From Tubulanus polymorphus (Eukaryota; Nemertea; Palaeonemertea; Tubulaniformes; Tubulanidae): a stretch of DNA of 60,000 nucleotides. The notes under the pieces are model-generated. The model made no database searches. It worked only from the letters and a program-made list of their open reading frames with translations, and was not told the DNA's origin. Each line of letters starts with the position of its first letter. Position 1 is the first letter of the stretch. The stretch spans positions 13,337,001 to 13,397,000 of the forward strand of contig NC_134025.1 of the NCBI RefSeq assembly GCF_964204645.1, read 5' to 3'. Below, in pieces: positions 3,403 to 53,830 of this stretch. Position numbers and translations under genes: made by a program.

Positions 3403-6400
3403 ATGGACAGCCAAAATCAAAAGGAAACTCTTGTCGCAGGAGAAAACCTCAAACTCGACCTGTTGATAACAAAGGGCTGAGGAGTTCAGATGAATATATC
3501 ATATCAACAGACAATGATAGCATTTATTCAGAAGATTCTATCAGTCCCAATGAAGACCGAGAGCACCAGATCAGAGCTCGCAGTGCATCTGCTGTTGTAG
3601 ACGGTGCTGTTGGCGGGATTGATATGGAAGCTTTTCCCCGCAGCGCATCGACAAATGCTGTGGACAATGCGCATGGTGACTTTCAAGGGAAAATGAAAGC
3701 TATCCCACCTGAAGAATCATTCCACCTGAGCTGGGATAGCGGTATTGGAACAATACAAAGAGGCCAGTCTGTAGCTGAAACGAATGTTTTTAGTGATGCA
3801 GAAACCTTATTAGGACCAGATGAAAATGATGCCGAGAGGTCGCTGAGAGATGTTGACGATTCCTTAAGATGTACCGCTCTAGAACAAACCGTCGTTAATC
3901 ACTGGTCATCTCTAGATTCTGCCGAAGCTGATGTGGTACGTCCTAGAATCGATGTAGAAGTCGGTGGAGTAGCCCTTCTGCCAGATGAATTGCGTGTAGT
4001 TATACCTACACGAAGACTACCAGAAAATGTGATTGTCACGGATACGGATGTTTGGAATAACACATCTAATGACAGAAATGCATCTCTTTTTGGATATTTG
4101 ACACCAGGAATAGAATCTAGTACAGCTGACATCGATTCCATTACACACGAAGGCATGTCAAATGATACCGTTGTAAGTGAAGGCACCTTCGTAATTGGTT
4201 ATCATCCCGATTATAATGATTGTGTACAGTTGAATAACAAACGGACCTTATCAGATCGGAAACGTGAGGATAGTAAAAGTACAGAACAAATTGACATTTC
4301 AGTACCTAAGGGTGAGAAAAAACAACGAGGGGCAAAATCTGAAGATGTTCATACTGGTGATGAGCATCTATCAGATGAATCCGATCTTGGAAACATTGAA
4401 CCTGACAGAGAAAGATACAGCGACGAGATGATAAGGTGCCAAATTGTACATTTCAAATGTCCCGATCCGTCGTCTCGACGGAATAAACGGGATCCTAATC
4501 GGGATGAAGAGCGGAGACGAGCATTGATCTTTTCAGACTTGTTGAACTTTAACATTCATGATAATTTTCACTCGGAATGTTTTAGTGCTGAAAGTTGGCC
4601 AGCTAATAATGAACAGGGTAGTGGCGAGGCGAGTCGAATACCAGATCTAATTGAAGGCCATAATACGTCTGTAGCTGTTTCGCATAGAATTATCAGTGAG
4701 CGATTATCAAGCGAAGAGCAACCTGGCACGCGAACATTGGATAGACTTGGCCGAGGGTCTCTTGAAGTGTGGTCGACCGATTATGATCATACTCCCGTAA
4801 TGGCCTGTCCGCCACAGCCAATACCCGTGACAGCTTCTCAGAAATTTTTTGATGCAATTACAGAAAGGCTGGATTCGAAGCCATCTAGACTAACATTAGG
4901 TATTACCAAAACCGAGATCTGGGAAGGGAATGGAACTGATGCTGATGACAAAATAGAAGTAACAATGACACCCCCAGGCCAGACATTAGAATCAAATCTT
5001 GTAGCCATTGATATACCATTGTCTTCTCGAAATTATGCGGTCACAGAGTTGTCTCTAGAAAGCCCTGAATTGATTACAATGCATCTGCTAGACCAGCAGG
5101 TCACGGGAAACAATACTGTCCTGTCAATCTCCGAGAATGATTCAGCTACGTCTCAGGACAGAGTCCAACAGGTTCCATGCCGTATTGAGACGTTCGCAAA
5201 TAATGTACATCACGCTGAGAAACAACATGCTACCACGGTTAGGGCAGATCTGCCTTCCCGAATCTGTCCAATATCTAAAGTGCCTTCAATTTTACCAGAA
5301 ACTGCTCCTATTTATAGTATACCCGGAAGCATTGTAACAAGGGAAGGCGTGCAAGTACCATCTACTGGCACTGAATATGCTCACAGTCAGATGAATGACA
5401 TTCTTAATGGACTAGAAATCGCTGCCGTTGAATTATGGTCAAATTATGACGATGGACACTTAACCACGGCTGGAAGCCAACCGGATACAGTTGATGCGCA
5501 TGAAAAAATGATCAGAAGACCAATGCTACTTCAGGTAACTGCCACAAATCGATGGAGTACCGATGGCCATGGAAATATTTTAAAAGGACCAATCGTAGAC
5601 GCGACTACTCATGGTGAGTCATTTACGGTGCCATTGGAGGCAATAATACAAGACATTTGGAAGACGGAAGTACCATTGGGTAAGACTGGTGATACAATGT
5701 GTAGGATGACATCCGAAAATAATAGATTAATCAAGGAGTGCTTAGACTATCTTGATTTCGCTCCATTAGAAACATGGGCCAACTCTGACCCTGATGCAAA
5801 AAGCCTGGTCTGTTTTGAACCACCAAATGACGTTCCTCCCATGCGCTACCAAAATGCAAAAAACCTTGCTGGACTTATTATGGCAGTTTGGGCCACAGAT
5901 GGCTTAGATGTAAAAGGAGAATCTAAGATTGAAGTTGAATATGCATCGGCATTTCACAATGGATCGGTATCACTTTCAAATAATTTCGGAGCAAAAATAT
6001 CAGTGACTGCAGAACCGAGATTCATTAGGCCTCAAACGCTACTTGAAGCAGTTGAAAATGATCTTTATGATGAAACTGCTAAAACATTTTTGGACCCAAG
6101 AACTGACGTCAAATATAATCTAGCGTCTGCCATAACTAGTGGTTTGATAGATGACGAAACTACAAAACTAGCTATTCCCAATGGCGGAAGATTATCCCTG
6201 AAAGATGCTATGACTGACGGACTCGTGGACTCGTGTTCCGGACAGGTATTAGATCAAATGACCGGCAGATTGATTTCTCTGCCAGTTGCTATTGAAAGGC
6301 GGATTGTTGTTTCTGATGTACGAATGAATGAAGACCAACGAGAATTCAAGGGCATGTCTACAGAAAAAATTGAAGAAAATAATGATTTGTCTGACGAAAA

Positions 6401-9400
6401 AAATGTGCCAAAAGGTTACATCCAAAGCAATAATTCTAGCACAACGAGTTTCAAATTACCTGATGTGATGAAAAGTGGAATATTGCGGAATGAATTTACC
6501 AATCCAAAAACAGGAAGGTTAGATGAAGCTATACAGGGTGGGACGATAGATGCTCAACATTTCAATATACTCCTGCCATCTGGGGATACAAATATATTAG
6601 ACATTGCACCTGCCACTGGGCAGGTAGATCCCAAAATGCGGCGAGTAACTGGCCGTGTGGCAGCTTCACACATACCTCTCATGCAAACTGCCACAACCGA
6701 TTTGCATGAAACGCGTTCGCCCATGGTTAATCTAAGCTATGAGGCAACAAGACATATGACTCCAGATAATGCCCATGATGATGCAAAATATGCTAGCATC
6801 ATTCAACCAAAATGTAGATCAACCGATGACATAAAACCTGTAGAAACAGATTTGATTGTTGATAACAACAAATTAACTCAAGAGAGTAAAAAGTTTGATT
6901 CTATGAAGAAAATGGATGTTGAGTGTATAATTAATCCACTAACTGATCAAGTAGGTAGAGATAAATTTGACTTTCCATTGCCAAAAAAACATTTTCTCGC
7001 AGAAGTTCATACAATCACTTTGCTCTTAGAAGAGCTCAGTACTTCACAACTTGAAATTTGGTCGAATACGGATGACTTTGATAGGCCATGCGATGCTTAC
7101 CAACCACCACTTTGTCACGAGCGAAAGGAAATCAAACGTTTTCATAACCCAGCACATCTTGAATCAATAACAATTCGACCTTGGAGTACTGATGGGTTAG
7201 GAACAGAGCATGGTGCTACTGAAATTGAGTACTTGTGTGGAGGAATTATTGGTTATGGAAAACTGGTTCCACCTGAGATACCAATTCCAGATGATGATTC
7301 CGCAAAATCTCAGAAAGTTAGGGCACAAACATGTTTAAAGAAAATCAAAATTTCAAATCGTCTTTGGAAGTCTGCCATCGATATCTGGACTAATCTGTCA
7401 GCAATTCCGAAACCTTTATCGGTTTCCCATCCTAGGAGAAAAATTGGCCCATGTCCAAATAAAGTTTTGTTAAAAAAACTAAGAATTTGCATCACCGATG
7501 AATGGCAAAATGATGGAATAGCAAATACAGAAATAACTATGGAGTCTCATTTTATATCCCCGAGTAAAAGAGGAATTTCATCTTGCCGAAGACGAAATAT
7601 TGACGACAGAGATATTGGGCCTGCAGACTACTTGCAGGGTAGTGAATCCGAATCCATATATGGACCTGATGGAAATATGGATATCTCAGCACAACTTAAT
7701 CATTCTATACAAAAAGGAGAATTTGATATTGCACCTATTGATTTATGGTCATCCGTACATCCAAGCGAACCAGTTTCCTATCATTCACCATCAAATGGTC
7801 AGCCATACAGTAAAAAGGCGTTGAAGAGATGGTTCACACTTATGTCTAAGCAGCTCCCTATTTGGCATACCGAGGGTTTAGATCATGGTTTTCATAAAGT
7901 GGAGATTGAATATGATACCCCTGACAGTTTTGGAAAGTACGTTTTGCCCTTGACAGACATTGATGTCACGGTGATGGACAGTTGCAAAAATTCTGATCCC
8001 AATGAATGTCAAAAAATATCATTTAAAAATGATGACTTAAACTTTAAACTCGCGCCCATTGATGTGTGGTGTACATCAATTCGGGATAAAGATCTCTCGG
8101 TAAATGTCCCCAATGGTTTAAGGAGGAAGACACGATCTTTCTCAAGACGAAGGCTGATGGAACGTTCGGCCAATGAAGTGTGGCATACTGATGGAATAGA
8201 CCGAGCGGATTATCTTTTTGAAGTAAGCTCTATAACTTCTTATGATAAGGGCACAGTAAAAGTGCACCAGCCGCGGTTGCATAGTATAGGAGAACGAGAT
8301 GAATGTTCGTCAAATATATATACATTGGATATGGTGAACCAGCCAGATAGTTTGATACTAAGTGCGTTGGTGGATCAAGGCTTGTTGATACCACCAGTGC
8401 CAGAAGATATAGCTGTCAAAGAAACTAAAGGAATAGCATGTGGTACACCGGTGAAAGAAGAAGAGAATGAAATAACCATGTTTTCAAAACATGCAGACTC
8501 TGTGGGTTTTGATTCACGCAATATACATGCTCATCAGGATATTCCAATGACTAAGGTAAGTAACATTTCACAATCATTAAACATTCGTATTAACGATCAG
8601 GTATTCAAGGCATCAGCTGGTAGCTTCGACGGTGAAGGTTCAACCAACTCCCATATTGAGAATATGCCTACATCAGTTCACTTAGCTGAAAATGATGATG
8701 TCCAGGAATTGAGCAGTCCGCAGGAAAGTGAACCAGGCGCAGTTAGTGACCTGACTTTCCTAGACGATAACAAGGCAGGTTCTAGTAGCATTTGTGCAAC
8801 TCTGCAAAAAGGTGATATGGGCAGAGAATTGTACGATGAATGTAAAGATATCATAATGAAAGATACCAGAGGGAAAATAATCACTGCACCGCATTATTTG
8901 ACTCAACAAGCTAATTTAGATAAAACAGCAGGAGAAACTGCCACACCAGAGCGTTCGAACGTATATGATTCAAAAAAACGATATGGCGTAAACCAGAAAG
9001 ACATCAGCGAAACATTATCGAATATGTCTGTACGCATGTCAAAATCTTGGAATGACATTTCCATGCTCAACGAAAACGATGTCAGTTCAAATGATTATGC
9101 AAAAAATGGAAAGCTGTTTGCAAACACACCTAAGGTGCATGGATGTACAGGTACACTTCCACCGATTTTTGAACTAAACAGTTTTACCGATGAAGACACA
9201 TTTGATCAATATGGTTCAAGAATGCATAGAAAATATACTCAATCAGATCCTGGTATCGACAACGCTGGAGTTAATATCCCGGAACGTTCATATTCAGAAA
9301 CAGATCTATATGCATTTGACAATTACCTTATGTTAAACGAGCTATCACAGTCATCTGATAGTATAATGTACATTTTCCTGGGTACGAGGTCTTCTACCAC

Positions 9401-12400
9401 AAAAAGCACCGATGATATATGTGATAACTTGGAAAATCAATTCGAAAAGTTGGGTGCCACGCCTACAACTAAGGAACATTCTGCATTTCCAAAGTCAGTT
9501 TTGAAGAGCAAGGATTCAACAGCCATTAAGATACTAACGGAAGTCAAAGGAGAAAGACCATCTGTATATCATCCAGGATTGGTAATGAGGAAAAGGAGAT
9601 TGGCCAAAAGCAAAAGGCCGAAGAGTTATCATTTTGATAGACGTATGATTCGAGATTTCGAGGGGGAAAATCACCACGAGGAACAGAGAAAATCATTTTA
9701 TGAACAAGACCTAGCTGCAACACCGGAATATGGAAGAAAAGGCAAGGAATGGACGCCTGCAACAGAAAGTGGAAAAGATCTAGCTGAGAAACAAAGATGT
9801 TCAATTGAGCAATCTTTAGATGTCGCTTCTGGTCAAGCAAACAAACATATATTTTCACTGTCGGGCGATGTTAACAATAGCGCTGTTTCATCCGATGTAA
9901 CGAAACTGGAGCCAATGATGTTGGAAGAAACTCTCGGCACATTCGTAGACCCGCAAACACGCAGCAAGATGAAACTCGCTGATGCGGTCGCCACTAGTTT
10001 GATTGACGGAACGTCGACTAAAGTAAAGACGCCGTCCGGAGGGTCGACAACACTTTCTCAAGCAATTTCTACCGGTATCGTCGATGGCCAATCAGGAAAG
10101 GGGTTTAGTCCATCGACCGGAAAACTGGTTGACTTGTCACAAGCCATTGACTCGGGAGTGGTGAGTACCTATTCGAAACCGAAGATGACGCTGAATGAAG
10201 CCGTTGAACGGGGTCTTTACGATAGTGATGACAATACAATCATCGACCCAAATACTGGTAGCAAAGTAAAATTACTATCGGCCATCTCCGACGGATTGAT
10301 CGACGCCACTTCGTCAGCGATAACTGCATCAGATGGCAGCGTCGTACAATTAAATCGAGCCCTTTCCGATGGTCTTGTCGACGCACACACTGGCAACGTT
10401 ATCGACGAAACTACAGGCAAATCCGTCGCACTGTCGGATGTTCTCACTAATAAACCGGCGACAGTTCCAAAAAACCTAAGTATCGAAGAAGCTATCGAGA
10501 TTGGTGTTTTCGACGCAAAAAGAAACGCATTTATCGATCCATTAACCGGAAAAGATATGACGCTAGCAGAGGCCGTACAACACGGATTGGTCAGCGCTGA
10601 AAGATCACACGTGAAAACATCTGATGGTGATTTCATGACCGTTGGCCGAGCTATTGCAACTGGTAGTATCGACGGCGAAACAGGAATTGTTAACGACCAA
10701 AAGACAGGCCAGGCAGTGTGCCTCGCTGAAGCTGTCTCCAAAGGATTGGTTAGCTCAGTCGAAGCGGTTGTTCCACCACTTAAATCGCTGACCGTCGACG
10801 AAGCAGTAAAAAGGGGTCTTTACGATGAAAAGACCAACACTTTCGTGGACCCCATCAACGGCAGTCGGATGAGTTTGGTTTCGGCTATTACCAGTGGGAA
10901 AATCGACGCGGAGGCGAGCAAAGTAAAAACGCTGACCGGAGACGTGTCACTCAATGAAGCTCTTTCATCCGGAATCGTAGATGCCACAACTGGAAAGGTT
11001 GCCGACCAAACTACCGGACAGATAATTTCACTGTCGGATGCTGTTAACAATGGCGCTGTTTCATCCGATGTTAGGCAACCGGAACCAATGACGTTGGATG
11101 AAGCGCTCGGCAAAGGTATTTACGATGCCAAATCGAACACAGTGATCGATCCAAACAGCGGAAATCGCTTGTCAATCATTGATGCGGTGAAAGAAGGAGT
11201 GATTGACGGAAAATTGAGTAAACTGAAACTGGCAACTGACAGCGATCGGGAAATAAGTCTTCAAGACGTCATTAACACAGGCATGATAGACCCCGATTCC
11301 GGTAAACTGATCGACCCTAACAGTGGACAAGTTATCGATGTCGAGCAAGCATTACAAACAGGCGCGAAACTAGCCGATACAACGCAAGTACGTGGAATTA
11401 CCATTGACGAAGCCATTTCTGCTGGATTGATGGACGGAAACACATTCGTAGATCCACAAACGGGCAGAAAGATGAACCTCGCTGATGCGGTCGCCACTGG
11501 TTTGATTGACGGAATGTCGAAAAAAGTAAAGACGCCGTCCGGAGGGTCGACAACACTTTCTCAAGCAATTTCTACCGGTATCGTCGATGGCTTATCAGGA
11601 AAGGTGTTTAGTCCATCGACCGGAAAACTGGTTGACTTGTCACAAGCCATTGACTCGGGAGTGGTGAGTACCTATTCGAAACCGAAGATGACGCTGAATG
11701 AAGCCATTGAACGGGGTCTTTACGATAGTGATGACAATACAATCATCGACCCAAATACTGGTAGCAAAGTAAAATTACTATCGGCCATCTCCGACGGAGT
11801 GATCGACGCCACCTCGTCAGCGATAACAGCTTCAGATGGCAGCGTCGTTCAATTAAATCGAGCCATTTCCGATGGTCTTGTCGACGCACACACTGGCAAC
11901 GTTATCGACGAAACTACAGGCAAATCCGTCGCGCTGTCGGATGTTCTCACTAATAAACCGGCGACAGTACCAAAAAACCTAAGTATCGAAGAAGCTATCG
12001 AGATTGGTGTTTTCGACGCAAAAAGAAACGCATTTATCGATCCATTAACCGGAAAAGATATGACGCTATCAGAGGCCGTACAACACGGATTGGTCAGCGC
12101 TGAAAGATCACACGTGAAAACATCTGATGGTGATTTCATGACCGTTGGCCGAGGTATTGCAACTGGTAGTATCGACGGCGAAACAGGAATTATTAACGAC
12201 CAAAAGACAGGCCAGGCAGTGTGCCTCGCTGAAGCTGTCTCCAAAGGATTGGTTAGCTCAGTCGAAGAGGATGTTCCACCACTTAAATCGCTGACCGTCG
12301 ACGAAGCAGTAAAAAGGGGTCTTTACGATGAAAAGACCAACACTTTCGTGGACCCCATCAACGGCAGTCGGATGAGTTTGGTTTCGGCTATTACCAGCGG

Positions 12401-15400
12401 GAAAATCGACGCGGAGGCGAGCAAAGTAAAAACGCTGACCGGAGACGTGTCACTCAATGAAGCTCTTTCATCCGGAATCGTAGATGCCACAACTGGAAAG
12501 GTTGCCGACCAAACTACCGGACAGATAATTTCACTGTCGGATGCTGTTAACAATGGCGCTGTTTCATCCGATGTTAGGCAACCGGAACCAATGACGTTGG
12601 ATGAAGCGCTCGGCAAAGGTATTTACGATGCCAAATCGAACACAGTGATCGATCCAAACAGCGGAAATCGCTTGTCAATCATTGATGCGGTGAAAGAGGG
12701 AGTGATTGACGGAAAATTGAGTAAACTGAAACTGGCAACTGACAGCGATCGGGAAATAAGTCTTCAAGACGTCATTAACACAGGCATGATAGACCCCGAT
12801 TCCGGTAAACTGATCGACCCTAACAGTGGACAAGTTATCGATGTCGAGCAAGCATTACAGACAGGCGCGAAACTAGCCGATACAATGCTGGTACGTGGAA
12901 TGACCATTGACGAAGCCATTTCTGCTGGATTGATGGACGGAAACACATTCGTAGACCCACAAACGGGCAGAAAGATGAACCTCGCTGATGCGGTCGCCAC
13001 TGGTTTGATTGCCGGAACGTCGACTAAAGTAAAGACGCCGTCCGGAGAGTCGACAACACTTTCTCAAGCAATTTCTGCCGGTATCGTTGATGGCCAATCA
13101 GGAAAGGTGTTTAGTCCATCGACCGGAAAACTGGTTGACTTGTCACAAGCCATTGACTCGGGAGTGGTGAGTACCTATTCGAAACCGAAGATGACGCTGA
13201 ATGAAGCCGTTGAACGGGGTCTTTACGATAGTGATGACAAAACGATCATCGACCCAAATACTGGTAGCAAAGTAAAATTACTATCGGCCATCTCCGACGG
13301 ATTGATCGACGCCACCTCGTCAGCGATAACTGCTTCAGATGGCAGCGTCGTTCAATTAAATCGAGCCATTTCCGATGGTCTTGTCGACGCACACACTGGC
13401 AACGTTATCGACGAAACTACAGGCAAATCCGTCGCGCTGTCGGATGTTCTCACTAATAAACCGGCGACAGTACCAAAAAACCTAAGTATCGAAGAAGCTA
13501 TCGAGATTGGTGTTTTCGACGCAAAAAGAAACGCATTTATCGATCCATTAACCGGAAAAGATATGACGCTAGCAGAGGCCGTACAACACGGATTGGTCAG
13601 CGCTGAAAGATCACACGTGAAAACATCTGATGGTGATTTCATGACCGTTGGCCGAGCTATTGCAACTGGTAGTATCGACGGCGAAACAGGAATTATTAAC
13701 GACCAAAAGACAGGCCAGGCAGTGTGCCTCGCTGAAGCTGTCTCCAAAGGATTGGTTAGCTCAGTCGAAGAGGATGTTCCACCACTTAAATCGCTGACTG
13801 TCGACGAAGCAGTAAAAAGGGGTCTTTACGATGAAAAGACCAACACTTTCGTGGACCCCATCAACGGCAGTCGGATGAGTTTGGTTTCGGCTATTACCAG
13901 CGGGAAAATCGACGCGGAGGCGAGCAAAGTAAAAACGCTGACCGGAGACGTGTCACTCAATGAAGCTCTTTCATCCGGAATCGTAGATGCCACAACTGGA
14001 AAGGTTGCCGACCAAACTACCGGACAGATAATTTCACTGTCGGATGCTGTTAACAATGGCGCTGTTTCATCCGATGTTAGGCAACCTGAACCAATGACGT
14101 TGGATGAAGCGCTCGGCAAAGGTATTTACGATGCCAAATCGAACACAGTGATCGATCCAAACAGCGGAAATCGCTTGTCAATCATTGATGCGGTGAAAGA
14201 AGGAGTGATTGACGGAAAATTGAGTAAACTGAAACTGGCAACTGACAGCGATCGGGAAATAAGTCTTCAAGACGTCATTAACACAGGCATGATAGACCCC
14301 GATTCCGGTAAACTGATCGACCCTAACAGTGGACAAGTTATCGATGTCGAGCAAGCATTACAGACAGGCGCGAAACTAGCCGATACAATGCCAGTACGTG
14401 GAATGACCATTGACGAAGCCATTTCTGCTGGATTGATGGACGGAAACACATTCGTAGACCCACAAACGGGCAGAAAGATGAACCTCGCTGATGCGGTCGC
14501 CACTGGTTTGATTGACGGAGCGTCGACTAAAGTAAAGACGCCGTCCGGAGAGTCGACAACACTTTCTCAAGCAATTTCTGCCGGTATCGTTGATGGCCAA
14601 TCAGGAAAGGTGTTTAGTCCATCGACCGGAAAACTGGTTGACTTGTCACAAGCCATTGACTCGGGAGTGGTGAGTACCTATTCGAAACCGAAGATGACGC
14701 TGAATGAAGCCGTTGAACGGGGTCTTTACGATAGTGATGACAATACAATCATCGACCCAAATACTGGTAGCAAAGTAAAATTACTATCGGCCATCTCCGA
14801 CGGAGTGATCGACGCCACCTCGTCAGCGATAACTGCTTCAGATGGCAGCGTCGTTCAATTAAATCGAGCCATTTCCGATGGTCTTGTCGACGCACACACT
14901 GGCAACGTTATCGACGAAACTACAGGCAAATCCGTCGCGCTGTCGGATGTTCTCACTAATAAACCGGCGACAGTACCAAAAAACCTAAGTATCGAAGAAG
15001 CTATCGAGATTGGTGTTTTCGACGCAAAAAGAAACGCATTTATCGATCCATTAACCGGAAAAGATATGACGCTAGCAGAGGCCGTACAACACGGATTGGT
15101 CAGCGCTGAAAGATCACACGTGAAAACATCTGATGGTGATTTCATGACCGTTGGCCGAGCTATTGCAACTGGTATTATCGACGGCGAAACAGGAATTATT
15201 AACGACCAAAAGACAGGCCAGGCAGTGTGCCTCGCTGAAGCTGTCTCCAAAGGATTGGTTAGCTCAGTCGAAGAGGATGTTCCACCACTTAAATCGCTGA
15301 CTGTCGACAAAGCAGTAAAAAGGGGTCTTTACGATGAAAAGACCAACACTTTCGTGGACCCCATCAACGGCAGTCGGATGAGTTTGGTTTCGGCTATTAC

Positions 15401-33400: not shown

Positions 33401-36400
33401 CAACGGCAGTCGGATGAGTTTGGTTTCGGCTATTACCAGCGGGAAAATCGACGCGGAGGCGAGCAAAGTAAAAACGCTGACCGGAGACGTGTCACTCAAT
33501 GAAGCTCTTTCATCCGGAATCGTAGATGCCACAACTGGAAAGGTTGCCGACCAAACTACCGGACAGATAATTTCACTGTCGGATGCTGTTAACAATGGCG
33601 CTGTTTCATCCGATGTTAGGCAACCTGAACCAATGACGTTGGATGAAGCGCTCGGCAAAGGTATTTACAATGCCAAATCGAACACAGTGATCGATCCAAA
33701 CAGCGGATATCGCTTGTCAATCATTGATGCGGTGAAAGAAGGAGTGATTGACGGAAAATTGAGTAAACTGAAACTGGCAACTGACAATGATCGGGAAATA
33801 AGTCTTCAAGACGTCATTAACACAGGCACGATAGACCCCGATGCCGGTAAACTGATCGACCCTAACAGTGGACAAGTTATCGATGTCGAGCAAGCGTTAC
33901 AGACAGGCGCGAAACTAGCCGATACAACGCAAGTACGTGGAATGACCATTGACGAAGCCATTTCTGCTGGATTGATGGACGGAAACACATTCGTAGACCC
34001 ACAAACGGGCAGCAAGATGAACCTCGCTGATGCGGTCGCCACTGGTTTGATTGACGGAACGTCGACTAAAGTAAAGACGCCGTCCGGAGAGTCGACAACA
34101 CTTTCTCAAGCAATTTCTGCCGGTATCTTTGATGGCCAATCAGGAAAGGTGTTTAGTCCATCGACCGGAAAACTGGTTGACTTGTCACAAGCCATTGACT
34201 CGGGAGTGGTGAGTACCTATTCGAAACCGAAGATGACGCTGAATGAAGCCGTTGAACGGGGTCTTTACGATAGTGATGACAATACAATCATCGACCCAAA
34301 TACTGGTAGCAAAGTAAAATTACTATCGGCCATCTCCGACGGAGTGATCGACGCCACCTCGTCAGCGATAACTGCTTCAGATGGCAGCGTCGTTCAATTA
34401 AATCGAGCCATTTCCGATGGTCTTGTCGACGCACACACTGGCAACGTTATCGACGAAACTACAGGCAAATCCGTCGCGCTGTCGGATGTTCTCACTAATA
34501 AACCGGCGACAGTACCAAAAAACCTAAATATCGAAGAAGCTATCAAGATTGGTGTTTTCGACGCCAAAAGAAACGCATTTATCGATCCATTAACCGGAAA
34601 AGATATGACGCTAGCAGAGGCCGTACAACACGGATTGGTCAGCGCTGAAAGATCACACGTGAAAACATCTGATGGTGATTTTATGACCGTTGGCCGAGCT
34701 ATTGCAACTGGTAGTATCGACGGCGAAACAGGAATTGTTAACGACCAAAAGACAGGCCAAGCAGTGTGCCTCGATGAAGCTGTCTCCAAAGGATTGGTTA
34801 GCTCAGTCGAAGCGGTTGTTCCACCACTTAAATCGCTGACCGTCGACGAAGCAGTAAAAAGGGGTCTTTACGATGAAAAGACCAACACTTTCGTGGACCC
34901 CATCAACGGCAGTCGGATGAGTTTGGTTTCGGCTATTACCAGCGGGAAAACCGACGCGGAGGCGAGCAAAGTAAAAACGCTGGCCGGAGACGTGTCACTC
35001 AATGAAGCTCTTTCATCCGGAATCGTAGATGCCACAACTGGAAAGGTTGCCGACCAAACAACCAGACAGATAATTTCACTGTCGGATGCTGTTAACAATG
35101 GCGCTTTTTCATCCGATGTTAGGCAACCTGAACCAATGACGTTGGATGAAGCGCTCGGCAAAGGTATTTACGATGCCAAATCGAACACAGTGATCGATCC
35201 AAACAGCGGAAATCGCTTGTCAATCATTGATGCGGTGAAAGAGGGAGTGATTGACGGAAAATTGAGTAAACTGAAACTGACAACTGACAGCGATCGGGAA
35301 ATAAGTCTTCAAGACGTCATTAACACAGGCATGATAGACCCCGATTCCGGTAAACTGATCGACCCTAACAGTGGACAAGTTATCGATGTCGAGCAAGTAT
35401 TACAGACAGGCGCGAAACTAGCCGATACAACGCCAGTACGTAAATTGACCATTGACGAAGCCATTTCTGCTGGATTGATGGACGGAAACACATTCGTAGA
35501 CCCACAAACGGGCAGAAAGATGAACCTCGCTGATGCGGTCGACACTGGTTTGATTGACGGAACATCGACTAAAGTAAAGACGCCGTCCGGAGAGTCGACA
35601 ACACTTTCTCAAGCAATTTCTGCCGGTATCGTTGATGGCCAATCAGGAAAGGTGTTTAGTCCATCGACCGGAAAACTGGTTGACTTGTCACAAGCCATTG
35701 ACTCGGGAGTGGAGAGTACCTATTCGAAACTGAAGATGACGCTGAATGAAGCCGTTGAACGGGGTCTTTACGATAGTGATGACAATACAATCATCGACCC
35801 AAATACTGGTAGCAAAGTAAAATTACTATCGGCCATCTCCGACGGAGTGATCGACGCCACCTCGTCAGCGATAACTGCTTCAGATGGCAGCGTCGTTCAA
35901 TTAAATCGAGTCATTTCCGATGGTCTTGTCGACGCACACACTGGCAACGTTATCGACGAAACTACAGGCAAATCCGTCGCGCTGTCGGATGTTCTCACTA
36001 ATAAACCGGCGACAGTACCAAAAAACTTAAGTATCGAAGAAGCTATCGAGATTGGTGTTTTCGACGCAAAAAGAAACGCATTTATCGATCCATTAACCGG
36101 AAAAGATATGACGCTAGCAGAGGCCGTACAACACGGATTGGTCAGCGCTGAAAGATCACTCGTGAAAACATCTGATGCTGATTTCATGACCGTTGGCCGA
36201 GCTATTGCAACTGGTAGTAACGACGGCGAAACAGGAATTGTTAACGACCAAAAGACAGGCCAAGCAGTGTGCCTCGATGAAGCTGTCTCCAAAGGATTGG
36301 TTAGCTCAGTCGAAGCGGTTGTTCCACCACTTAAATCGCTGACCGTCGACGAAGCAGTAAAAAGGGGTCCTTACGATGAAAAAACCAACACTTTCGTAGA

Positions 36401-39400
36401 CCCCATCAACGGCAGTCGGATGAGTTTGGTTTCGGCTGTTACCAGCGGGAAAATCGACGCGGAGGCAACCAAAGTAAAAACGCTGACCGGAGACGTGTCA
36501 CTCAATGAAGCTCTTTCATCCGAAATCGTAGATGCCACAACTGGAAAGGTTGCAGACCAAACTACCGGACAGGTAATTTCACTGTCGGATGCTGTTAACA
36601 ATGACCCTGTTTCATCCGATGTTAGGCAACCGGAACCAATGACGTTGGATGAAGCGCTCGGCAAAGGTATTTACGATGCCAAATCGAACACAGTGATCGA
36701 TCCAAACAGCGGATATCGCTTGTCAATCATTGATGCGGTGAAAGAAAGAGTGATTGACGGAAAATTGAGTAAACTGAAACTAGCAACTGACAGCGATCGG
36801 GAAATAAGTCTTCAAGACGTCATTAACACAGGCATGATAGACCCCGATTCCGGTAAACTGATCGACCCTGATAGTGGACAAGTTATCGATGTCGAGCAAG
36901 CATTACAGACAGGCGCGAAACTAGCCGATACAATGCCAGTACGTGGAATGACCATTGACGAAGCCATTTCTGCTGGATTGATGGACGAAAACACATTCGT
37001 AGATCCACAAACGGGCAGCACGATAAACCTCGCTGATGCGGTCACCACTGGTTTGATTGACGGAACGTCGACTAAATTAAAGACGCCGTCCGGAGGGTCG
37101 ACAACACTTTCTCAAGCAATTTCTACCGGTATCGTCGATGGCCAGTCAGGAAAGGTGTTTAGTCCATCGACCGGAAAACTGGTTGACTTGTCACAAGCCA
37201 TTGACTCGGGAGTGGTGAGTACCTATTCGAAACCGAAGATGACGCTGAATGAAGCCGTTGAACGGGGTCTTTACGATAGTGATGACAATACGATCATCGA
37301 CCCAAATACTGGTAGCAAAGTAAAATTACTATCGGCCATCTCCGACGGATTGATCGACGCCACCTCGTCAGCGATAACTGCTTCAGATGGCAGCGTCGTA
37401 CAATTAAATCGAGCCCTTTCCGATGGTCTTGTCGACGCACACACTGGCAACGTTGTCGACGAAACTACAGGCAAATCCGTCGCACTGTCGGATGTTCTCA
37501 CTAATAAACCGGCGACAGTACCAAAAAACCTAAGCATCGAAGAAGCTATCGAGATTGGTGTTTTCGACGCAAAAAGAAACGCTTTTATCGATCCATTAAC
37601 CGGAAAAGATATGACGCTAGCAGAGGCCGTAAAACACGGATTGGTCAGCGCTGAAAGATCACACGTGAAAACATCTGATGGTGATTTCATGACCGTTGGC
37701 CGAGCTATTGCAACTGGTAGTATCGACGGCGAAACAGGAATTATTTACGACCAAAAGACAGGCCAAGCAGTGTGCCTCGCTGAAGCTGTCTCCAAAGGAT
37801 TGGTTAGATCGGTCGAGGCGGTTGTTCCACCACTTAAATCGCTGACCGTCGACGAAGCAGTAAAAAGGGGTCTTTACGATGAAAAGACCAACACTTTCGT
37901 AGACCCCATCAACGGCAGTCGGATGAGTTTGGTTTCGGCTATTACCAGCGGTAAAATCGACGCGGAGGCGAGCAAAGTAAAAACGCTGACCGGAGACGTG
38001 TCACTCAATGAAGCTCTTTCATCCGGAATCGTAGATGCCACAACTGGAAAATTTGCCGACCAAACTACCGGACAGATAATTTCACTGTCGGATGCTGTTA
38101 ACAATGACCCTGTTTCATCCGATGTTAGGCAACCGAAACCAATGACGTTGGATGAAGCGCTCGGCAAAGGTATTTACGATGCCAAATCGAACGCAGTGAT
38201 CGATCCAAACAGCGGAAATCGCTTGTCAATCATTGATGCGGTGAAAGAAGGAGTGATTGACGGAAAATTGAGTAAACTGAAACTGGCAACTGACAGCGAT
38301 CGGGAAATAAGTATTCAAGACGTCATTAACACAGGCATGATAGACCCCGATTCCGGTAAACTGATCGACCCTGATAGTGGACAAGTTATCGATGTCGAGC
38401 AAGCATTACAGACAGGCGCGAAACTAGCCGATACAATGCCAGTACGTGGAATGACCATTGACGAAGCCATTTCTGCCGGATTGATGGACGAAAACACATT
38501 CGTAGATCCACAAACGGGCAGCAAGATAAACCTCGCTGATGCGGTCACCACTGGTTTGATTGACGGAACGTCGACTAAATTAAAGACGCCGTCCGGAGGG
38601 TCGACAACACTTTCTCAAGCAATTTCTACCGGTATCGTCGATGGCCAGTCAGGAAAGGTGTTTAGTCCATCGACCGGAAAACTGGTTGACTTGTCACTAG
38701 CCATTGACTCGGGAGTGGTGAGTACCTATTCGAAACCGAAAATGACGCTGAATGAAGCCGTTGAACGGGGTCTTTACGATAGTGATGACAATACGATCAT
38801 CGACCCAAATACTGGTAGCAAAGTAAAATTACTATCGGCCATCTCCGACGGATTGATCGACGCCACCTCGTCAGCGATAACTGCTTCAGATGGCAGCGTC
38901 GTACAATTAAATCGAGCCCTTTCCGATGGTCTTGTCGACGCACACACTGGCAACGTTATCGACGAAACTACAGGCAAATCCGTCGCACTGTCGGATGTTC
39001 TCACTAATAAACCGGCGACAGTACCAAAAAACCTAAGCATCGAAGAAGCTATCGAGATTGGTGTTTTCGACGCAAAAAGAAACGCATTTATCGATCCATT
39101 AACCGGAAAAGATATGACGCTAGCAGAGGCCGTAAAACACGGATTGGTCAGCGCTGAAAGATCACACGTGAAAACATCTGATGGTGATTTCATGACCGTT
39201 GGCCGAGCTATTGCAACTGGTAGTATCGACGGCGAAACAGGAATTATTAACGACCAAAAGACAGGCCAAGCAGTGTGCCTCGCTGAAGCTGTCTCCAAAG
39301 GATTGGTTAGATCGGTCGAGGCGGTTGTTCCACCACTTAAATCGCTGACCGTCGACGAAGCAGTAAAAAGGGGTCTTTACGATAAAAAGACCAACACTTT

Positions 39401-42400
39401 CGTAGACCCCATCAACGGCAGTCGGATGAGTTTGGTTTCGGCTATTACCAGCGGTAAAATCGACGCGGAGGCGAGCAAAGTAAAAACGCTGACCGGAGAC
39501 GTGTCACTCAATGAAGCTCTTTCATCCGGAATCGTAGATGCCACAACTGGAAAGGTTGCCGACCAAACTACCGGACAGATAATTTCACTGTCGGATGCTG
39601 TTAACAATGACCCTGTTTCATCCGATGTTAGGCAACCGAAACCAATGACGTTGGATGAAGCGCTCGGCAAAGGTATTTACGATGCCAAATCGAACGCAGT
39701 GATCGATCCAAACAGTGGAAATCGCTTGTCAATCATTGATGCGGTGAAAGAAGGAGTGATTGACGGAAAATTGAGTAAACTGAAACTGGCAACTGACAGC
39801 GATCGGGAAATAAGTCTTCAAGACGTCATTAACACAGGCATGATAGACCCCGATTCCGGTAAACTGATCGACCCTAACAGTGGACAAGTTAACGATGTCG
39901 AGCAAGCATTACAAACAGGCGCAAAACTTGCCGATACAATGCAAGTACGTGAAATTACCATTGACGAAGCCATTTCTGCTGGATTGATGGACGAAAACAC
40001 ATTCGTAGATCCACAAACGGGCAGCAAGATGAACCTCGCTGATGCGGTCGCCATTGGTTTGATTGACGGAACGTCGACAAAAGTAAAGACACCGTCCGGA
40101 GGGTCGACAACACTTTCTCAAGCAATTTCTACCGGTATCGTCGATGGCCAATCAGGAAAGGTGTTTAGTCCATTGACCGGAAAACTGGTTGACCTGTCAA
40201 AAGCCATTGACTCGGGAGTGGTGAGTATCTATTCGAAACCGAAGATGTCGCTGAATGAAGCCGTTGAACGGGGTCTTTACGATAGTGATGACAATACGAT
40301 CATCGACCCAAATACTGGTAGCAAAGTAAAATTACTATCGGCCATCTCCGACGGATTGATCGACGCCACCTCGTCAGCGATAACTGCTTCAGATGGCAGC
40401 GTCGTACAATTAAATCGAGCCCTTTCCGATGGTCTTGTCGACGCACACACTGGCAACGTTATCGACGAAACTACAGGCAAATCCGTCGCACTGTCGGATG
40501 TTCTCACTAATAAACCGACGACAGTACCAAAAAACCTAAGCATCGAAGAAGCTATCGAGATTGGTGTTTTCGACGCAAAAAGAAACGCATTTATCGATCC
40601 ATTAACCGGAAAAGATATGACGCTAGCAGAGGCCGTACAACACGGATTGGTCAGCGCTGAAAGATCACTCGTGAAAACATCTGATGGTGATTTCATGACC
40701 GTTGGCCGAGCTATTGCAACTGGTAGTATCGACGGCGAAACAGGAATTTTTAACGACCAAAAGACAGGCCAGGCAGTGTGCCTCGCTGAAGCTGTCTCCA
40801 TAGGATTGGTTAGCTCAGTCGAAGCGGTTGTTCCACCACTTAAATCGCTGACCGTCGACGAAGCAGTAAAAAGGGGTCTTTACGATGAAAAGACCAACAC
40901 TTTCGTGGACCCCATCGACGGCAGTCGGATGAGTTTGCTTTCGGCTATAACCAGCGGTAAAATCGACGCGGAGGCGAGCAAAGTAAAAACGCTGACCGGA
41001 GACGTGTCACTCAATGAAGCTCTTTCATCCGGAATCGTAGATGCCACAACTGGAAAGGTTGCCGACCAAACTACCGGACAGATAATTTCACTGTCGGATG
41101 CTGTTAACAATGGCGCTGTTTCATCCGATGTTAGGCAACCGGAACCAATGACGTTGGATGAAGCGCTCGGCAAAGGTATTTACGATACCAAATCGAACAC
41201 AGTGATCGATCCAAACAGCGGATATCGCTTGTCAATCATTGATGCGGTGAAAGAAAGAGTGATTGACGGAAAATTGAGTAAACTGAAACTAGCAACTGAC
41301 TGCGATCGGGAAATAAGTCTTCAAGACGTCATTAACACAGGCATGATAGACCCCGATTCCGGTAAACTGATCGACCCTGATAGTGGACAAGTTATCGATG
41401 TCGAGCAAGCATTACAGACAGGCGCGAAACTAGCCGATACAATGCCAGTACGTGGAATGACCATTGACGAAGCCATTTCTGCCGGATTGATGGACGAAAA
41501 CACATTCGTAGATCCACAAACGGGCAGCAAGATAAACCTCGCTGATGCGGTCACCACTGGTTTGATTGACGGAACGTCGACTAAATTAAAGACGCCGTCC
41601 GGAGGGTCGACAACACTTTCTCAAGCAATTTCTACCGGTATCGTCGATGGCCAATCAGGAAAGGTGTTTAGTCCATCGACCGGAAAACTGGTTGACTTGT
41701 CACAAGCCATTGACTCGGGAGTGGTGAGTACCTATTCGAAACCGAAGATGACGCTGAATGAAGCCGTTGAACGGGGTCTTTACGATAGTGATGACAATAC
41801 GATCATCGACCCAAATACTGGTAGCAAAGTAAAATTACTATCGGCCATCTCCGACGGATTGATCGACGCCACCTCGTCAGCGATAACTGCTTCAGATGGC
41901 AGCGTCGTACACCTAAATCGAGCCCTTTGCCATGGTCTTGTCGACGCACACACTGGCAACGTTATCGACGAAACTACAGGCAAATCCGTCGCGCTGTCGG
42001 ATGTTCTCACTAATAAACCGGCGACAGTACCAAAAAACCTAAGCATCGAAGAAGCTATCGAGATTGGTGTTTTCGACGCAAAAAGAAACGCATTTATCGA
42101 TCCATTAACCGGAAAAGATATGACGCTAGCAGAGGCCGTACAACACGGATTGGTCAGCGCTGAAAGATCACACGTGAAAACATCTGATGGTGATTTCATG
42201 ACCGTTGGCCGAGCTATTGCAACTGGTAGTATCGACGGCGAAACAGGAATTATTAACGACCAAAAGACAGGCCAAGCAGTGTGCCTCGCTGAAGCTGTCT
42301 CCAAAGGATTGGTTAGATCGGTCGAGGCGGTTGTTCCACCACTTAAATCGCTGACCGTCGACGAAGCATTAAAAAGGGGTCTTTACGATGAAAAGACCAA

Positions 42401-45400
42401 CACTTTCGTAGACCCCATCAACGGCAGTCGGATGAGTTTGGTTTCGGCTATTACCAGTGATAATCTCGACGCGAAGGCGGGCAAAGTAAAAACGCTGACC
42501 GGAGACGTGTCACTCAATGAAGCCCTTTCATCCGGAATCGTAGATGCCACAACTGGAAAGGTTGTCGACCAAACAAAGTTATCTACATCCTTATCTGAAC
42601 CGCATTTCATTACGAATTTTCACCGTGATGGCTCTACTCAGACGGATAGCATTACTCTATTGCCTCTTGTTTCTGACTACATTTCTTTGAAGGAATGTAA
42701 TGATATTGCTGTTCAAACATTTTGTACTGATACTGTATTGGGTCCCTTCTTCGAGGACAAAAACCTCATTGTAACGAGTGATCCTTCGCCCCTTTCCTTA
42801 CGAGGCAATCGGGAACAGTGCGAACAATACCATTATGTCCTGCAAAAAGATACTTTAATTACAAATCTTATCGACGATGCAACCCAAACTGATTTCTCTT
42901 ATACAGATAGCTCGGACGAAAGTGATTTCTTCGATGACGATGAATATGGAAACATTTGTGAAGGATTTAAATTCGAGAACACCAAACTTCAGAATATTGG
43001 TATACAAGCGGATTCGGCATCTACACAAACATTTTCTGTTGACATTAATGCCGCACTTACCAACGATGAAGTCGAAGATTGTGCTCAGGCATACAATCTT
43101 TCTTTGAAAACGGCTTTACGAGAACATAAGCCGGATGAGAATAATGATGGATGTATTGAATTGAGAGCTTATTCCCTTTCGTCTCTTGGCGATTCAGGAA
43201 TGTCTAGTTCTTTTGTGACATCTCATTCTGATATTTCTCGTTCCTCACAGCTGTCTACTTATGACATTAAAGTTAACCCATCAGTCCATCCCCCTTTAAT
43301 TCTGAGTCCCGTTGCTGAAAAGAAAAATGCGCTGGTTTCAGCGAAAAACGCCGCGATGTCTAATGCTGATTGGGGATCATCACATATGACTCCTAATATG
43401 ATGCACTCACTTTCCGAGAGTTCTCCCGAAAATGCGTCCAATGTGGCCATTCTACCTGAAGAAATCATTGCTTCATCTGAATTGACAAAATGTCGTAGCG
43501 AACCAGCATGTGAAAGATCTTGTTCTAAGGAAAAAGTGATAGGAGCTGAGAATTCTTACATATTGCCTGAATACACAGAGAAGACATCTGACGTGGCAGT
43601 GGAAGTATTCATTGAGACGCCGAAAATGTTTCCAGTTGCTACACAGACTGATTTCAATATTGATCCTATTGAATCTCATAATTCCCAAGACGAACTGTGC
43701 GAATCACTAAGTGGTGTCACACGAACAGATGTCAATACGTATATAAAAGATCGTATTCGCGATTCTCACGGGGATTTGTCAGAGTTGGTTCTACTTCCTC
43801 CTGAATATCTTAACGTTGTTGATATCGATGAACTTCTTGGAATGTTAGACGACGACGAATATAATGATAGCCACATTGAAACTCCTGAAATCATGCATGT
43901 TATGTCAATGCCTGACTTGAATGACCTTGATGACGTTGCTGGATTCAAAATAAATCTGACTAATGATCAAAGACCTACTAAGTCGGCCACAATGATTCAA
44001 AAAAGAAAGAAGATTTACTGTGATCTAGATATTCCCAACTATAAATTTGGAGTTGATGGGTTTGACGAACTTAAGGCTGAGCATCGAAGGATGTTAGATT
44101 TATTGAAGAAAACTGAGGCGGACCACCAAATTATGAAAGACAAGCGTGATCAAATTCGTTCGTCACATTCCACGCAACAAAGAACCGATGATGCAGTATC
44201 GCCATCGACGCCATTGTCAAGTTCCAGTAGTCCCGATTCGGTGATACTGTCAGAGAAGTATACTCCACAGAACAGGAATTTCCATATGAAACAAGAACTA
44301 ACCAATGCATTTAGAAAGCCCGATTGTGCAACGGACATTAGACGGACTAATGGATCGTATGAACTCTACAGTGAACATACACGTAATGACACTTATACGA
44401 CGAGCTTCACTGATGGACAGGAAGGTCAACAGCGACAAAGTTGGGAAAACCAAACGTATCCTATTGGAAAAACAGATTTAAATGATGCAGAATCAAACAC
44501 GTCGATGTCTCGAAGATTTAAAACGGTTATGGGTCACATAGAAAGGTCTTCAGATTACCAAAAGAAGCAAAGTACTGGACTGAAAACAGGCATGAACATA
44601 ACATCGAGTGAGCGAACTAGAGAATGGACGAATTATCTTCCCTCTGATAGTTTGTCAATCAAAACTGACAACCAAAAGTTACACGATATGACCAGTAACT
44701 TGGAAGCGGTTTACACCAACCAAAGGAGCAACAATTTTAGTATTGCGGATGGAGTCCCAAGCAACGCTGATGATGTTTGTCAAAATGACCTAGACCAGCA
44801 AGAGGAATTGACTTCAACAAAATCAGAGGCAGATGAAAATATATATGCTAGTCTAGCAAGAAGGTTAATGGAAAGTAAGCAGGCTGATACTAATTTGGGT
44901 ATGGATGATACTATGAGCACGTATGCAGATGACTGCACCCAAACTGGCGATCCTAACGTTGGTTTAGATGAATCAATTGAGACTGATTCAGCAATCCAAA
45001 ACCAGCTGGATAAACTCGTGCAAGAACGGACGCATATAATTGAGTTACTAGGGCATGATTACGCTCCGTCGCGAGTATGGACTGAACTGGTTGAGGCCCA
45101 GTTGAATTATGGCATTGGACAGACCGATTCTTTACTGGAAAGCTTAGACCAATGTGTTGATTTTGATCCTAATTTACTTAGTGGTCGACGAGCACGTACG
45201 GAAGACAATCTTCATATCATTACTAGATCATACCTGTTCGATTATCGACAACGATTAGAAAATTCCAAGAAAGATATTGAAGATCAAATTCAATCATTGG
45301 AGCGAATGAAAAAGAAGAAGCACAAACGGCCATCATTCAATCCTATGAAACTGCGCAGACAACTGCAGTTTGAAGCATTTAAATTAGAAAGAACTCGAAA

Positions 45401-45676
45401 TCAAGTAGTTGAACAAGCAAAAGGGCGAATATTCAATGCACGCATTCGCAGTCACACGTCAACTCCTAGAAGTGATGAATGCGATGATCTGTCAACGACA
45501 ACAGACTCGTTGCATTCAAGGCACGATAGATTTATGAGGCCCCACAACCACGTTGAGTATCTTGTTAACCTTAGACGTTCTCTCGTAGCATCAAGTTTGG
45601 AAAAAGAAAAACCTCAAAGACCTTCACCCAACCAAGGAAACTTAACACCCAAGCGTACTAGCAACAGTCTTGAAAG
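3403..45676 (+). CDS. Giant internal exon of a STARD9-like gene with a plakin-like mega-repeat array
   Basis: One uninterrupted frame of about 14,090 codons. I place the exon start at 3403, after the acceptor TTTCTCCACAG, in phase 1. The in-frame ATG at 3369 lies in the intron and is probably not a start. The donor is GAAAG|GTATAT at 45676/45677 (phase 2); reading through adds ten residues and stops at 45705-45707 inside a repeat element. Layout: Ser/Asp-rich leader; Trp-motif region (3890-8240); spacer; 501-aa tandem units (9852-42575); acidic C-terminal region with TQT motifs; a conserved-looking block around YGIGQTDSLLESL (about 45100-45150); then a basic coiled coil (about 45230-45400). 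The array makes up about 77% of the exon. Linkage to the START exons downstream rests on matching splice phases. STARD9 assignment is inference from the giant exon plus terminal START; a spectraplakin-like gene is the main alternative because of the repeats. Confidence 0.85.
6033..6323 (+). repeat. Solitary ancestral-type ~97-aa repeat module
   Basis: A single module outside the main array with the same internal geometry: segments of 29, 26 and 27 residues plus a final helix-like segment of about 15. Recognisable pieces are LLEAVENDLYDE, LASAITSGLIDDE, LKDAMTDGLVD and LPVAIERR, with DP-T and Q-TG turns at the expected positions. It sits between two Trp-motif groups and is well diverged from every array unit. 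It may represent the unit from which the array grew. Confidence 0.75.
6450..6670 (+). repeat. Second, degenerate solitary repeat module
   Basis: About 125 residues after the solitary module, a shorter and more decayed copy can be followed: VMKSGILRNEFTNPKTGR, LDEAIQGGTIDAQ, then LDIAPATGQVDP. The LDEAIxxGxID core and an NPKTG turn are kept, while spacing is disturbed. Homology is by eye only. Confidence 0.5.
8241..9851 (+). other. Low-complexity spacer within the giant exon
   Basis: About 540 residues rich in Ser, Asp, Asn and Lys with no recognised domain. A basic stretch (VMRKRRLAKSKRPKSYHFDRR, in part, near 9584-9645) precedes the array. It may be a disordered linker with a basic patch. 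Confidence 0.5.
9852..10184 (+). repeat. Fused partial first unit (module C end / D start joined to module E)
   Basis: Homology to the array starts here with a degenerate end of module C (DVNNSAVSSDV) and the first residues of module D (MLEETLG). It then jumps directly to module E (TFVDPQT). Compared with unit 1, exactly 110 codons (330 bp, equivalent to 11112-11441) are absent and frame is kept. The remainder of module E is nearly canonical. Confidence 0.8.
41748..42575 (+). repeat. Truncated last unit (unit 22: modules A, B and most of C)
   Basis: The last unit follows the consensus through modules A and B and into C, with private changes (HLNRALCHG, VDEALKRG, ITSDNLDAKAG). It stops after ATTGKVVDQT, where unique sequence begins (KLSTSLSEP). 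It therefore lacks the end of C and all of D and E. Confidence 0.85.
42576..45676 (+). other. Unique C-terminal region of the giant exon: TQT motifs, acidic segments, coiled coil
   Basis: About 1,030 residues. The first part is acidic and Ser-rich and carries five TQT motifs: STQTDS (about 42633), ATQTDF (about 42879), STQTFS (about 43019), ATQTDF (about 43638) and CTQTGD (about 44934), with related VQT and IQAD variants. TQT preceded and followed by such residues is the known recognition pattern of dynein light chain LC8. The last 250 residues are different: an amphipathic block with YGIGQTDSLLESL, then a charged helix (YRQRLENSKKDIEDQIQSLE) followed by a very basic run (MKKKKHKR). LC8 binding is inference. 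Confidence 0.65.
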
Positions 45677-47083: not shown

Positions 47084-47311
47084 ATCACGCGATTGGGAAC
47101 TAGACTCGTCTATAACAGACTTTTCATTTGGAGACATATCAAACGTCTCGTCACTTCATGATGAACCTATGCGGGTCCTTGAAGCTTGCCAGCGGCAACG
47201 CCTCCAAAGCCAGGCTCAAATTACGGAAGCAAGGGAAAAACTTCGTGACCTGCCACCAGTACTCAGATACAAACGGACGAAAGAAAAATCAAAGTCAGCC
47301 CATTCTTTAAG
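47084..47311 (+). CDS. Coding exon 2 of the window (charged, helical)
   Basis: Acceptor TTCATTATTGTAG at 47083; donor TTAAG|GTGAGG at 47311/47312. The first base completes the Arg codon begun by the giant exon and the end is phase 2, so the frame joins cleanly at both sides. It encodes 75 whole codons, beginning SRDWELDSSITDFSFGD and continuing with a charged helix (RVLEACQRQRLQSQAQITEA). The later part is basic (RYKRTKEKSKSAHSL). No named domain is recognised; it extends the coiled-coil tail coded at the end of the giant exon. Confidence 0.85.
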
Positions 47312-48073: not shown

Positions 48074-48173
48074 GGACAGCCGGAGATTAGAGGAGGAAAA
48101 CTATCATCATCGTCACCGATTTAATACTTCTACTCAGGAATTACGATACGCACGTCCACAAGCATTAGAACAG
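48074..48173 (+). CDS. Coding exon 3 of the window
   Basis: Acceptor ATCTTTGTGTAG at 48073; donor GAACAG|GTACTT at 48173/48174. It starts in phase 2 (completing an Arg codon) and ends in phase 0. It encodes 33 residues, DSRRLEEENYHHRHRFNTST followed by QELRYARPQALEQ. Highly charged and His/Arg-rich; it continues the tail of the same protein. Confidence 0.8.
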
Positions 48174-48932: not shown

Positions 48933-49006
48933 GTCATAGATAGCGAGATAGATGCGTTACGAAAAAATCATGAAAATGAAGCCTTAGGAAGGTCGTCATA
49001 CAGGAG
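48933..49006 (+). CDS. Coding exon on the START-less splice path
   Basis: Acceptor TCATACTCTTAG at 48932. The frame gives [19 protein letters not shown] and then RSSYR. Two phase-2 donors are possible: GGAAG|GTCGTC (exon end 48991) and AGGAG|GTATTC (exon end 49006); the second looks better. Either joins the exon at 51001 in frame. Twelve bases after the second donor a ~410-bp (TA)n tract begins. An exon ending in phase 2 cannot be joined directly to the phase-0 exon at 53329. Confidence 0.65.
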
Positions 49007-49016
49007 GTATTCTGAC

Positions 49017-49433
<417 letters not shown>

Positions 49434-49478
49434 GTCAAGAGATGCAGCCTCTAGACGGTTTTCCCCTGGTGATCGGAA

Positions 49479-49571
<93 letters not shown>

Positions 49572-51997: not shown

Positions 51998-52057
51998 GAA
52001 GTGCAAATATACGAACAGGAATTGACAGATATAGGAAAAAAAGGTGGTAGTTTCCAC
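51998..52057 (+). CDS. Possible 60-nt cassette exon
   Basis: Acceptor GTATATTGTATTCAG and strong donor CCAC|GTAAGG bracket exactly 20 codons, phase 0-0, reading EVQIYEQELTDIGKKGGSFH. The phase fits between the micro-exon at 48363 and the exon at 53329. Splice sites and phase only; no homology. Confidence 0.3.
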
Positions 52058-53778: not shown

Positions 53779-53830
53779 CTTGGATCTGTCGAAACCTGTA
53801 TTTCGGAATATATGGTTCAAGAACCTATTG
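53779..53830 (+). CDS. Small exon leading into the START domain
   Basis: Acceptor TTTATTCAG at 53778; donor CTATTG|GTGAGT at 53830/53831. It encodes LGSVETCISEYMVQEPI plus one base (phase 0 to 1). Confidence 0.8.

Follow-up and report, generated by a model that had tools for sequence, protein, structure and literature searches.

In this study, we analysed a stretch of 60,000 nucleotides from the nemertean Tubulanus polymorphus (the window; window position x is position 13337000 + x of contig C1, NC_134025.1), most of which is taken up by one giant exon on the plus strand. Only a single stop-to-stop frame of at least 300 aa is present on both strands of the window, and this frame (3366-45707, plus strand) comprises 14,113 codons. 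The remaining five frames across the same interval contain 261 to 1155 stops each, and their longest open run is 200 codons. The lowest of these counts, merely 261 stops in 14,113 codons, belongs to an antisense frame and is probably a codon-usage effect of the repeat array described below. Based on the splice signals, the giant exon extends from 3403 to 45676 (42,274 bp), with the acceptor ...tctccacag immediately before 3403 and the donor gtatatac immediately after 45676. It contains 14,090 whole codons, is entered with one base and left with two bases of a codon, and its length is 1 mod 3; the frame would therefore be broken if the exon were skipped. An initial annotation of this DNA had described a single stop-free exon of about 42 kb encoding about 14,000 residues, three quarters of it one tandem array; both statements are borne out here, the array making up 77% of the exon with 21.7 copies of its unit. 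The same annotation left the gene and the repeat family unnamed.

The exon can be divided into three parts. The N-terminal unique flank (3403..9932, about 2,176 aa) is acidic (pI 5.1) and carries a dispersed tryptophan motif (approximately hydrophobic-x-W-S/T/N-x-D), of which about 16 occurrences were counted by eye, with 23 tryptophans in the 2,176 residues; similar stretches open a protein of the gastropod Batillaria attramentaria (P0013). It is followed by the tandem array (9933..42575, ends approximate; residues ~2190-13070 of the open frame), whose 1503-bp/501-aa unit consists of five subunits. The C-terminal unique flank (42576..45676, about 1,033 aa) is partly homologous to two gastropod proteins and has five TQT motifs. 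Compared with itself, the array shows its highest identity at an offset of precisely 501 aa (97.2%), or 1503 nt in the DNA (98.5%), and at multiples of these offsets. When the lag-501 identity was scanned from residue 2160 to 12520 in 40-residue windows with a step of 20 residues, it fell below 80% solely in the first two windows (2160 and 2180), which lie at the array edge. The register is constant and there are zero stops throughout the array, the encoded protein is strongly acidic (pI 4.50), and the G+C content is about 48%, with 30 to 43% in the array-free 2-kb steps of the window. The copy number is that of the assembly; Tandem Repeats Finder was used for periods up to 500 and the 1503-bp array is therefore outside its listing.

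The 21 full copies are on average 98.1% identical at the nucleotide level (range 96.3-99.9%) and contain 163 unique variants. With the observed substitution spectrum, chance would give 5.2 nonsense changes among them, but the copies contain none (P 0.005). Synonymous variants number 55, more than the 43 expected (P 0.024). This supports the view that the reading frame of the array is maintained by selection and that the array is part of a real coding exon. Copies 3-10 differ from one another at 2-15 of the 1503 sites, differences to the other copies number 26-47 for copy 1 and 39-56 for copy 21, and the pairs 3-8, 4-9 and 5-10 differ at merely 5, 3 and 3 sites, respectively. Such a pattern is what would be expected for unequal crossing-over with block duplication.

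One unit of the array matches the Pfam family Plectin (PF00681) with an E value of 1.2e-44 and 150.2 bits (cut-off 20.5); NCBIfam assigned no family to this unit. The five subunits are 97-104 aa in length, and a profile built from two-subunit stretches of the array and of a locus on contig C2 matched six PDB sequences at E <=0.01, all of which are plakins, namely desmoplakin three times (best 1.6e-15), plectin, envoplakin and periplakin. Textbook plakin repeats have about 38 residues and fold into a hairpin and two helices. The helix-end spacings in the array are 24-28 residues in 15 of 18 cases, which is not the length of the canonical plakin repeat domain (PRD). In an AlphaFold model covering 298 residues (pLDDT 81, pTM 0.46, six sequences), each repeat forms a hairpin and a single short helix. 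Because the repeats are short and have one predicted helix each, we assign them, judging from profile matches and predicted fold, to the plakin repeat family but not to the canonical PRDs. Two plakin-type subunits are also found upstream of the array on the same strand: a single diverged one at 6036..6323 (76 bits to the subunit profile), which is possibly a founder or relic of the array, and a second, weaker and degenerate one at 6486..6704 (18 bits).

Downstream of the giant exon, a series of phase-compatible exons on the plus strand leads into a START domain. These are E1 (47084..47311), E2 (48074..48173), E3 (48933..49006), E4 (51001..51263, with an internal donor, AG/GTGACC, being used), E6 (53288..53577), E7 (53779..53830), E8 (53930..53991), E9 (54384..54608), where the START domain begins, E10 (54952..55074), E11 (55984..56064) and E12 (56142..56216), which continue it, and the last coding exon E13 (56314..56412), in which the domain and, with the stop codon at 56412, the frame come to an end. 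E5 (51998..52043) is an alternative small exon, and the route from E2 via E5 to E6 is likewise in frame. Joined exons E8-E13 match START (PF01852) with an E value of 1e-18 over profile positions 44-189 of 207, whereas a first fragment with incomplete exons gave no START match; in the PDB, the START piece is related to StAR (7e-9) and also to STARD5 and STARD6.

Upstream and on the same strand, kinesin exons are located at about -37,160 to -20,000 in window coordinates, where five open reading frame pieces gave a kinesin motor match (PF00225, E 2.4e-52). Among the best 60 of 139 PDB sequences, the longer motor piece is closest to KIF1A (4e-84), followed by KIF13B and KIF14, that is, to the kinesin-3 group. 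FHA-like exons follow at about -17,440 to -16,620, and an FHA domain after the motor is a feature of STARD9-type kinesin-3 proteins. The FHA-like stretch is 54% identical over 52 residues to a second kinesin locus (C1:27736308-27736463), which by this comparison is of the same group as the window gene and which is probably the KIF16B counterpart. Next come a coiled-coil exon (-9310 to -9090), which is also phase-compatible with the exons that follow it, and a 2.8-kb exon (-8390 to -5591, C1:13328610-13331409), which ends with two bases of a codon. Between the latter and the giant exon we chose a 98-nt exon (-5171 to -5074, C1:13331829-13331926), which leads in frame into 3403; the choice is a judgement, made on its consensus donor (TG/GTAAGT) and a product resembling its neighbours, and one further candidate 5' exon also has a GTAAGT donor. 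Together with the 2.8-kb and 98-nt exons and with E1-E4 and E6-E13, the giant exon gives a frame of 15,613 aa whose sole stop is at the very end, and the splice sites in compatible phases that had been noted for the giant exon are thus supported by 14 other exons.

The domain order along the locus is kinesin motor, FHA-like region, coiled coil, giant exon and C-terminal START, and that these parts would form one single gene rests on this order together with splice phase. On balance, we think it probable that the giant exon is the middle exon of a STARD9-type kinesin-3 gene, into which plakin repeats were acquired and then amplified, and that the array probably serves as a spacer. The motor presumably resembles those of the STARD9/KIF16 group. 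According to PMC10203878, human STARD9 has 4700 aa and 36 exons, an N-terminal kinesin domain, a C-terminal START domain and predicted coiled coils; motor first, START last, a coiled coil and a very long middle are therefore found in both proteins, but the window gene is more than three times longer and has the plakin-repeat array. Spectraplakins were our first idea, based on the plakin repeats. This was rejected since the flanks are a kinesin motor and a START domain, with no GAS2 or spectrin: GAS2 is matched eight times in the genome, on the window's contig no closer than 9.4 Mb, and no Pfam spectrin match was obtained in the N flank, one unit, the C flank or the product of E1-E4, E6 and E7. 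Giant ankyrins are not known to have a motor or a plakin array; like the window gene, they are cytoskeletal genes with an exceptionally long exon (PMC5135030). Epiplakin (EPPK1) has, like the giant exon, many plakin repeats in one exon, and as reported in PMC8782857 its whole coding sequence is in one exon and its repeat number varies among species. However, EPPK1 (5,088 aa in human) is built of nothing but plakin repeat domains, whereas the window holds part of a kinesin gene, a single exon of which has 14,091 codons; epiplakin was rejected as an identity because exons of the kinesin gene and START exons join in phase with the giant exon. In the portions of the open-licence literature that were searched, no description was found of plakin repeats joined to a kinesin or STARD9, or of such repeats in a giant exon.

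Relatives of the repeats are present elsewhere in the genome. A genome search with PF00681, in which 150 of 280 candidates were scored and from whose listing the window array itself is absent, so that the counts are a floor, gave at least 16 matches, of which 14 lie at C2:23.143-23.168 Mb and the other 2 at C1:22.815-22.820 Mb. The C2 locus (C2:23142742-23170336) contains two giant open frames (4,320 and 4,750 aa), spectrin repeats beyond them (two of three pieces above the Pfam cut-off, the third, upstream, below it) and a GAS2 domain at C2:23194481, and by its plakin and spectrin repeats and its GAS2 domain it is clearly a spectraplakin. The C1 locus at 22.8 Mb has a 1,951-aa frame and GAS2 at C1:22797278; it is only a probable second spectraplakin because the sole neighbouring frame scanned had no spectrin match. 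These loci, of the Shot/MACF1/dystonin type, have plakin repeats in giant open frames like the window gene, but spectrin repeats and GAS2 (C2 locus) or GAS2 (C1 locus) in place of its kinesin and START domains. The array unit is best matched by the 4,750-aa frame, with 37.5-39.6% identity across some 500 aa and E values down to 6e-108; its identity to the 4,320-aa frame is 27-30% and to the C1 locus 24-28%. The lone subunit at 6036-6323 is 44-45% identical to the 4,750-aa frame. In a poorly resolved tree of 107 subunits, two array subunits and this lone subunit group together (98/83). The 4,750-aa frame itself holds a homogenised 100-aa repeat, with 18 subunits in one clade.

Homologue searches in other species were limited to proteins with a length between 0.55 and 1.75 times that of the query, and the search with two units scored the 8000 best candidates; relatives with the same array could therefore be missed. 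Within these limits, the two-unit search gave 12 proteins, all with PF00681 and 23-29% identity. The 3'-flank search gave two gastropod proteins, one of Batillaria attramentaria, 38% identical over 208 aa, and one of Elysia chlorotica, 33% identical over 249 aa. Both are partial models, that of Batillaria extending at least about 3,360 residues before the shared part, and the homology extends near the donor at 45676. With the 5' flank, two proteins were obtained, both with plakin repeats and matched across 4-5% of the query, and the comparison of this flank with the Batillaria protein was not significant (best E 0.10). From these comparisons, the array looks like a lineage-specific addition.

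Several of our results weigh against the assignment to a single STARD9-type gene. The gene model is one predicted from genomic sequence. Among solved structures, KIF1A and KIF13B are the nearest kinesins, and no STARD9 motor is among the best 60 of 139 sequences; the FHA region was not matched by Pfam FHA, and Kinesin_assoc, at 0.0017, was under the cut-off, with a query piece that has a gap. The in-phase join starts at the 2.8-kb exon, so that the motor exons are outside it, and part of the FHA region is unlocated. Between the 2.8-kb exon and 3403, seven candidate exons fit the phase on both sides; therefore phase alone is weak for the 5' link and it is the domain order that carries the argument. 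Amino acid constraint within the array is mild, since dN/dS against the consensus is 0.52 for all changes and 0.63 for unique changes, values that are mildly low. The subunit tree gives no support to a single origin of the five array subunits and leaves the origin of the array unresolved. In both gastropod homologues, plakin, kinesin and START had no Pfam match at E <=1, and their link to STARD9 is one that we infer. At the 3' end, E5 gives an alternative splice route, and E4 has an in-frame stop at 51380-51382 if its internal donor is not used, which makes an isoform without START possible. An in-frame ATG at 3369-3371, 34 bases 5' of the giant exon acceptor, is a possible alternative start, and the frame continues past the donor to a stop at 45705; therefore a free-standing giant frame is formally possible.

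The last two of these points also bear on the idea that two or three neighbouring genes are present, a kinesin upstream, a giant plakin-repeat protein that would run from the ATG at 3369 to the stop at 45705, and a START protein downstream, with E4 ending its frame before START; in addition, 8.5 kb separate the 98-nt exon from 3403 and contain no provable exon. Yet motor first, coiled coil and START last is the order of vertebrate STARD9 (PMC10203878), 15 exons are phase-compatible with a single terminal stop, and the gastropod homology of the C flank reaches near the donor at 45676, where the giant exon would be spliced to E1, and we regard separate genes as quite improbable. That the frame is a pseudogene or a coding-looking satellite, for which the high identity of the copies could be quoted, is hardly credible given an array without stop or register change, the deficit of nonsense variants (5.2 expected vs 0) and a homologous C flank; the initial annotation, which had considered such an artefact unlikely, is supported in this by the open frame, the constant register and the 3'-flank homologues in two gastropods. 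It is rather unlikely, but deserves consideration, that the true array is longer or shorter than assembled, or that it is used only in a minor isoform. Units of 1.5 kb that are 98-99.9% identical are hard to assemble, and the plakin copy number of epiplakin has been reported to be hard to determine (PMC8782857); however, the copies can be told apart by 2-56 differences per 1503. As for a minor isoform, the array has one above-threshold donor-like site per unit, 22 in all, but skipping the exon breaks the frame, and no acceptor-like site in the 32.6-kb array passes the threshold, as against 22 in 14.3 kb of non-coding DNA nearby, although by comparison with codon-preserving shuffles the absence of such sites from one unit is not significant. 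Five acceptor-like sites above threshold lie in the 3.1 kb of the C flank and none in the N flank.

The main functional rival to a spacer is intermediate-filament binding, through which the protein would link microtubule motors to the intermediate-filament network. Vertebrate plakin repeat domains do bind intermediate filaments (PMC4782060) and the array repeats clearly are of the plakin family. On the other hand, envoplakin binds vimentin through a basic groove, which is electropositive (same source), and the array has a pI of 4.50; for this reason the spacer is favoured, even though the array may have a local basic patch despite its net charge. The repeats are also short (15 of 18 spacings at 24-28 aa), with one predicted helix each, and of the three database relatives measured, P0001 (pI 4.5) and P0002 (4.7) are acidic as well, the one from a termite having a pI of 5.5. 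Filament binding therefore appears unlikely to us, and we return to the spacer in what follows.

For the STARD9-type gene with a spacer, we propose the following history. The middle exon of a START kinesin would have acquired spectraplakin-type repeats in this lineage, and a five-subunit block of 501 residues would then have been amplified about 22-fold through unequal crossing-over or gene conversion, with the frame kept by selection. In the protein, the motor would travel on microtubules and the START end would hold lipid or a membrane, while the acidic array, as we infer, would act as a very long spacer or tether between the motor and the lipid-binding end. According to PMC10203878, vertebrate STARD9 is a kinesin of lysosomes that is required for the tubulation of membranes and the transport of cholesterol. 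The C flank has five TQT motifs vs a mean of 0.33 and a maximum of 3 in 500 shuffles, and none is present in the N flank or the array; the two gastropod homologues contain 6 and 3, numbers also reached by their shuffles, in which the means are 1.27 and 0.42 and the maxima 6 and 4, respectively. TQT is presumably the motif for the dynein light chain LC8, and the C-flank motifs are, we assume, likely LC8 sites. Lying beside the array, they may bind LC8 and pair two chains, and their clustering suggests such chain pairing.

Other features of the region can be noted. Tandem runs of about 154-bp repeats (49-381) and of about 130-bp repeats (46690-46935) flank the giant exon on either side, and the window has CGTC (45736-45858) and TA (49019-49568) microsatellites. 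Downstream of the window, a 713-aa frame at C1:13430714-13432852 (plus strand) resembles, by eye only, a mobile-element reverse transcriptase, and a receptor-like 370-aa frame lies nearby on the opposite strand.

If the assignment is true, T. polymorphus would have a kinesin far larger than vertebrate STARD9 (4,700 aa), and a motor protein would be joined with plakin repeats that otherwise belong to cytoskeletal cross-linkers, a combination undescribed in the open-licence literature searched. The array offers a test case for long acidic plakin arrays in invertebrates, and the exon one for the splicing and translation of a 42-kb internal exon. We suggest, tentatively and as a possibility rather than an expectation, a motor of more than 15,600 residues in which spectraplakin repeats have moved into a START kinesin and a fast-evolving coding array sets the distance from motor to cargo. 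From about 109 subunits, the length of this built-in tether may be guessed at perhaps some tenths of a micrometre, and as the repeat number could differ naturally between individuals, the tether would possibly be variable within populations.

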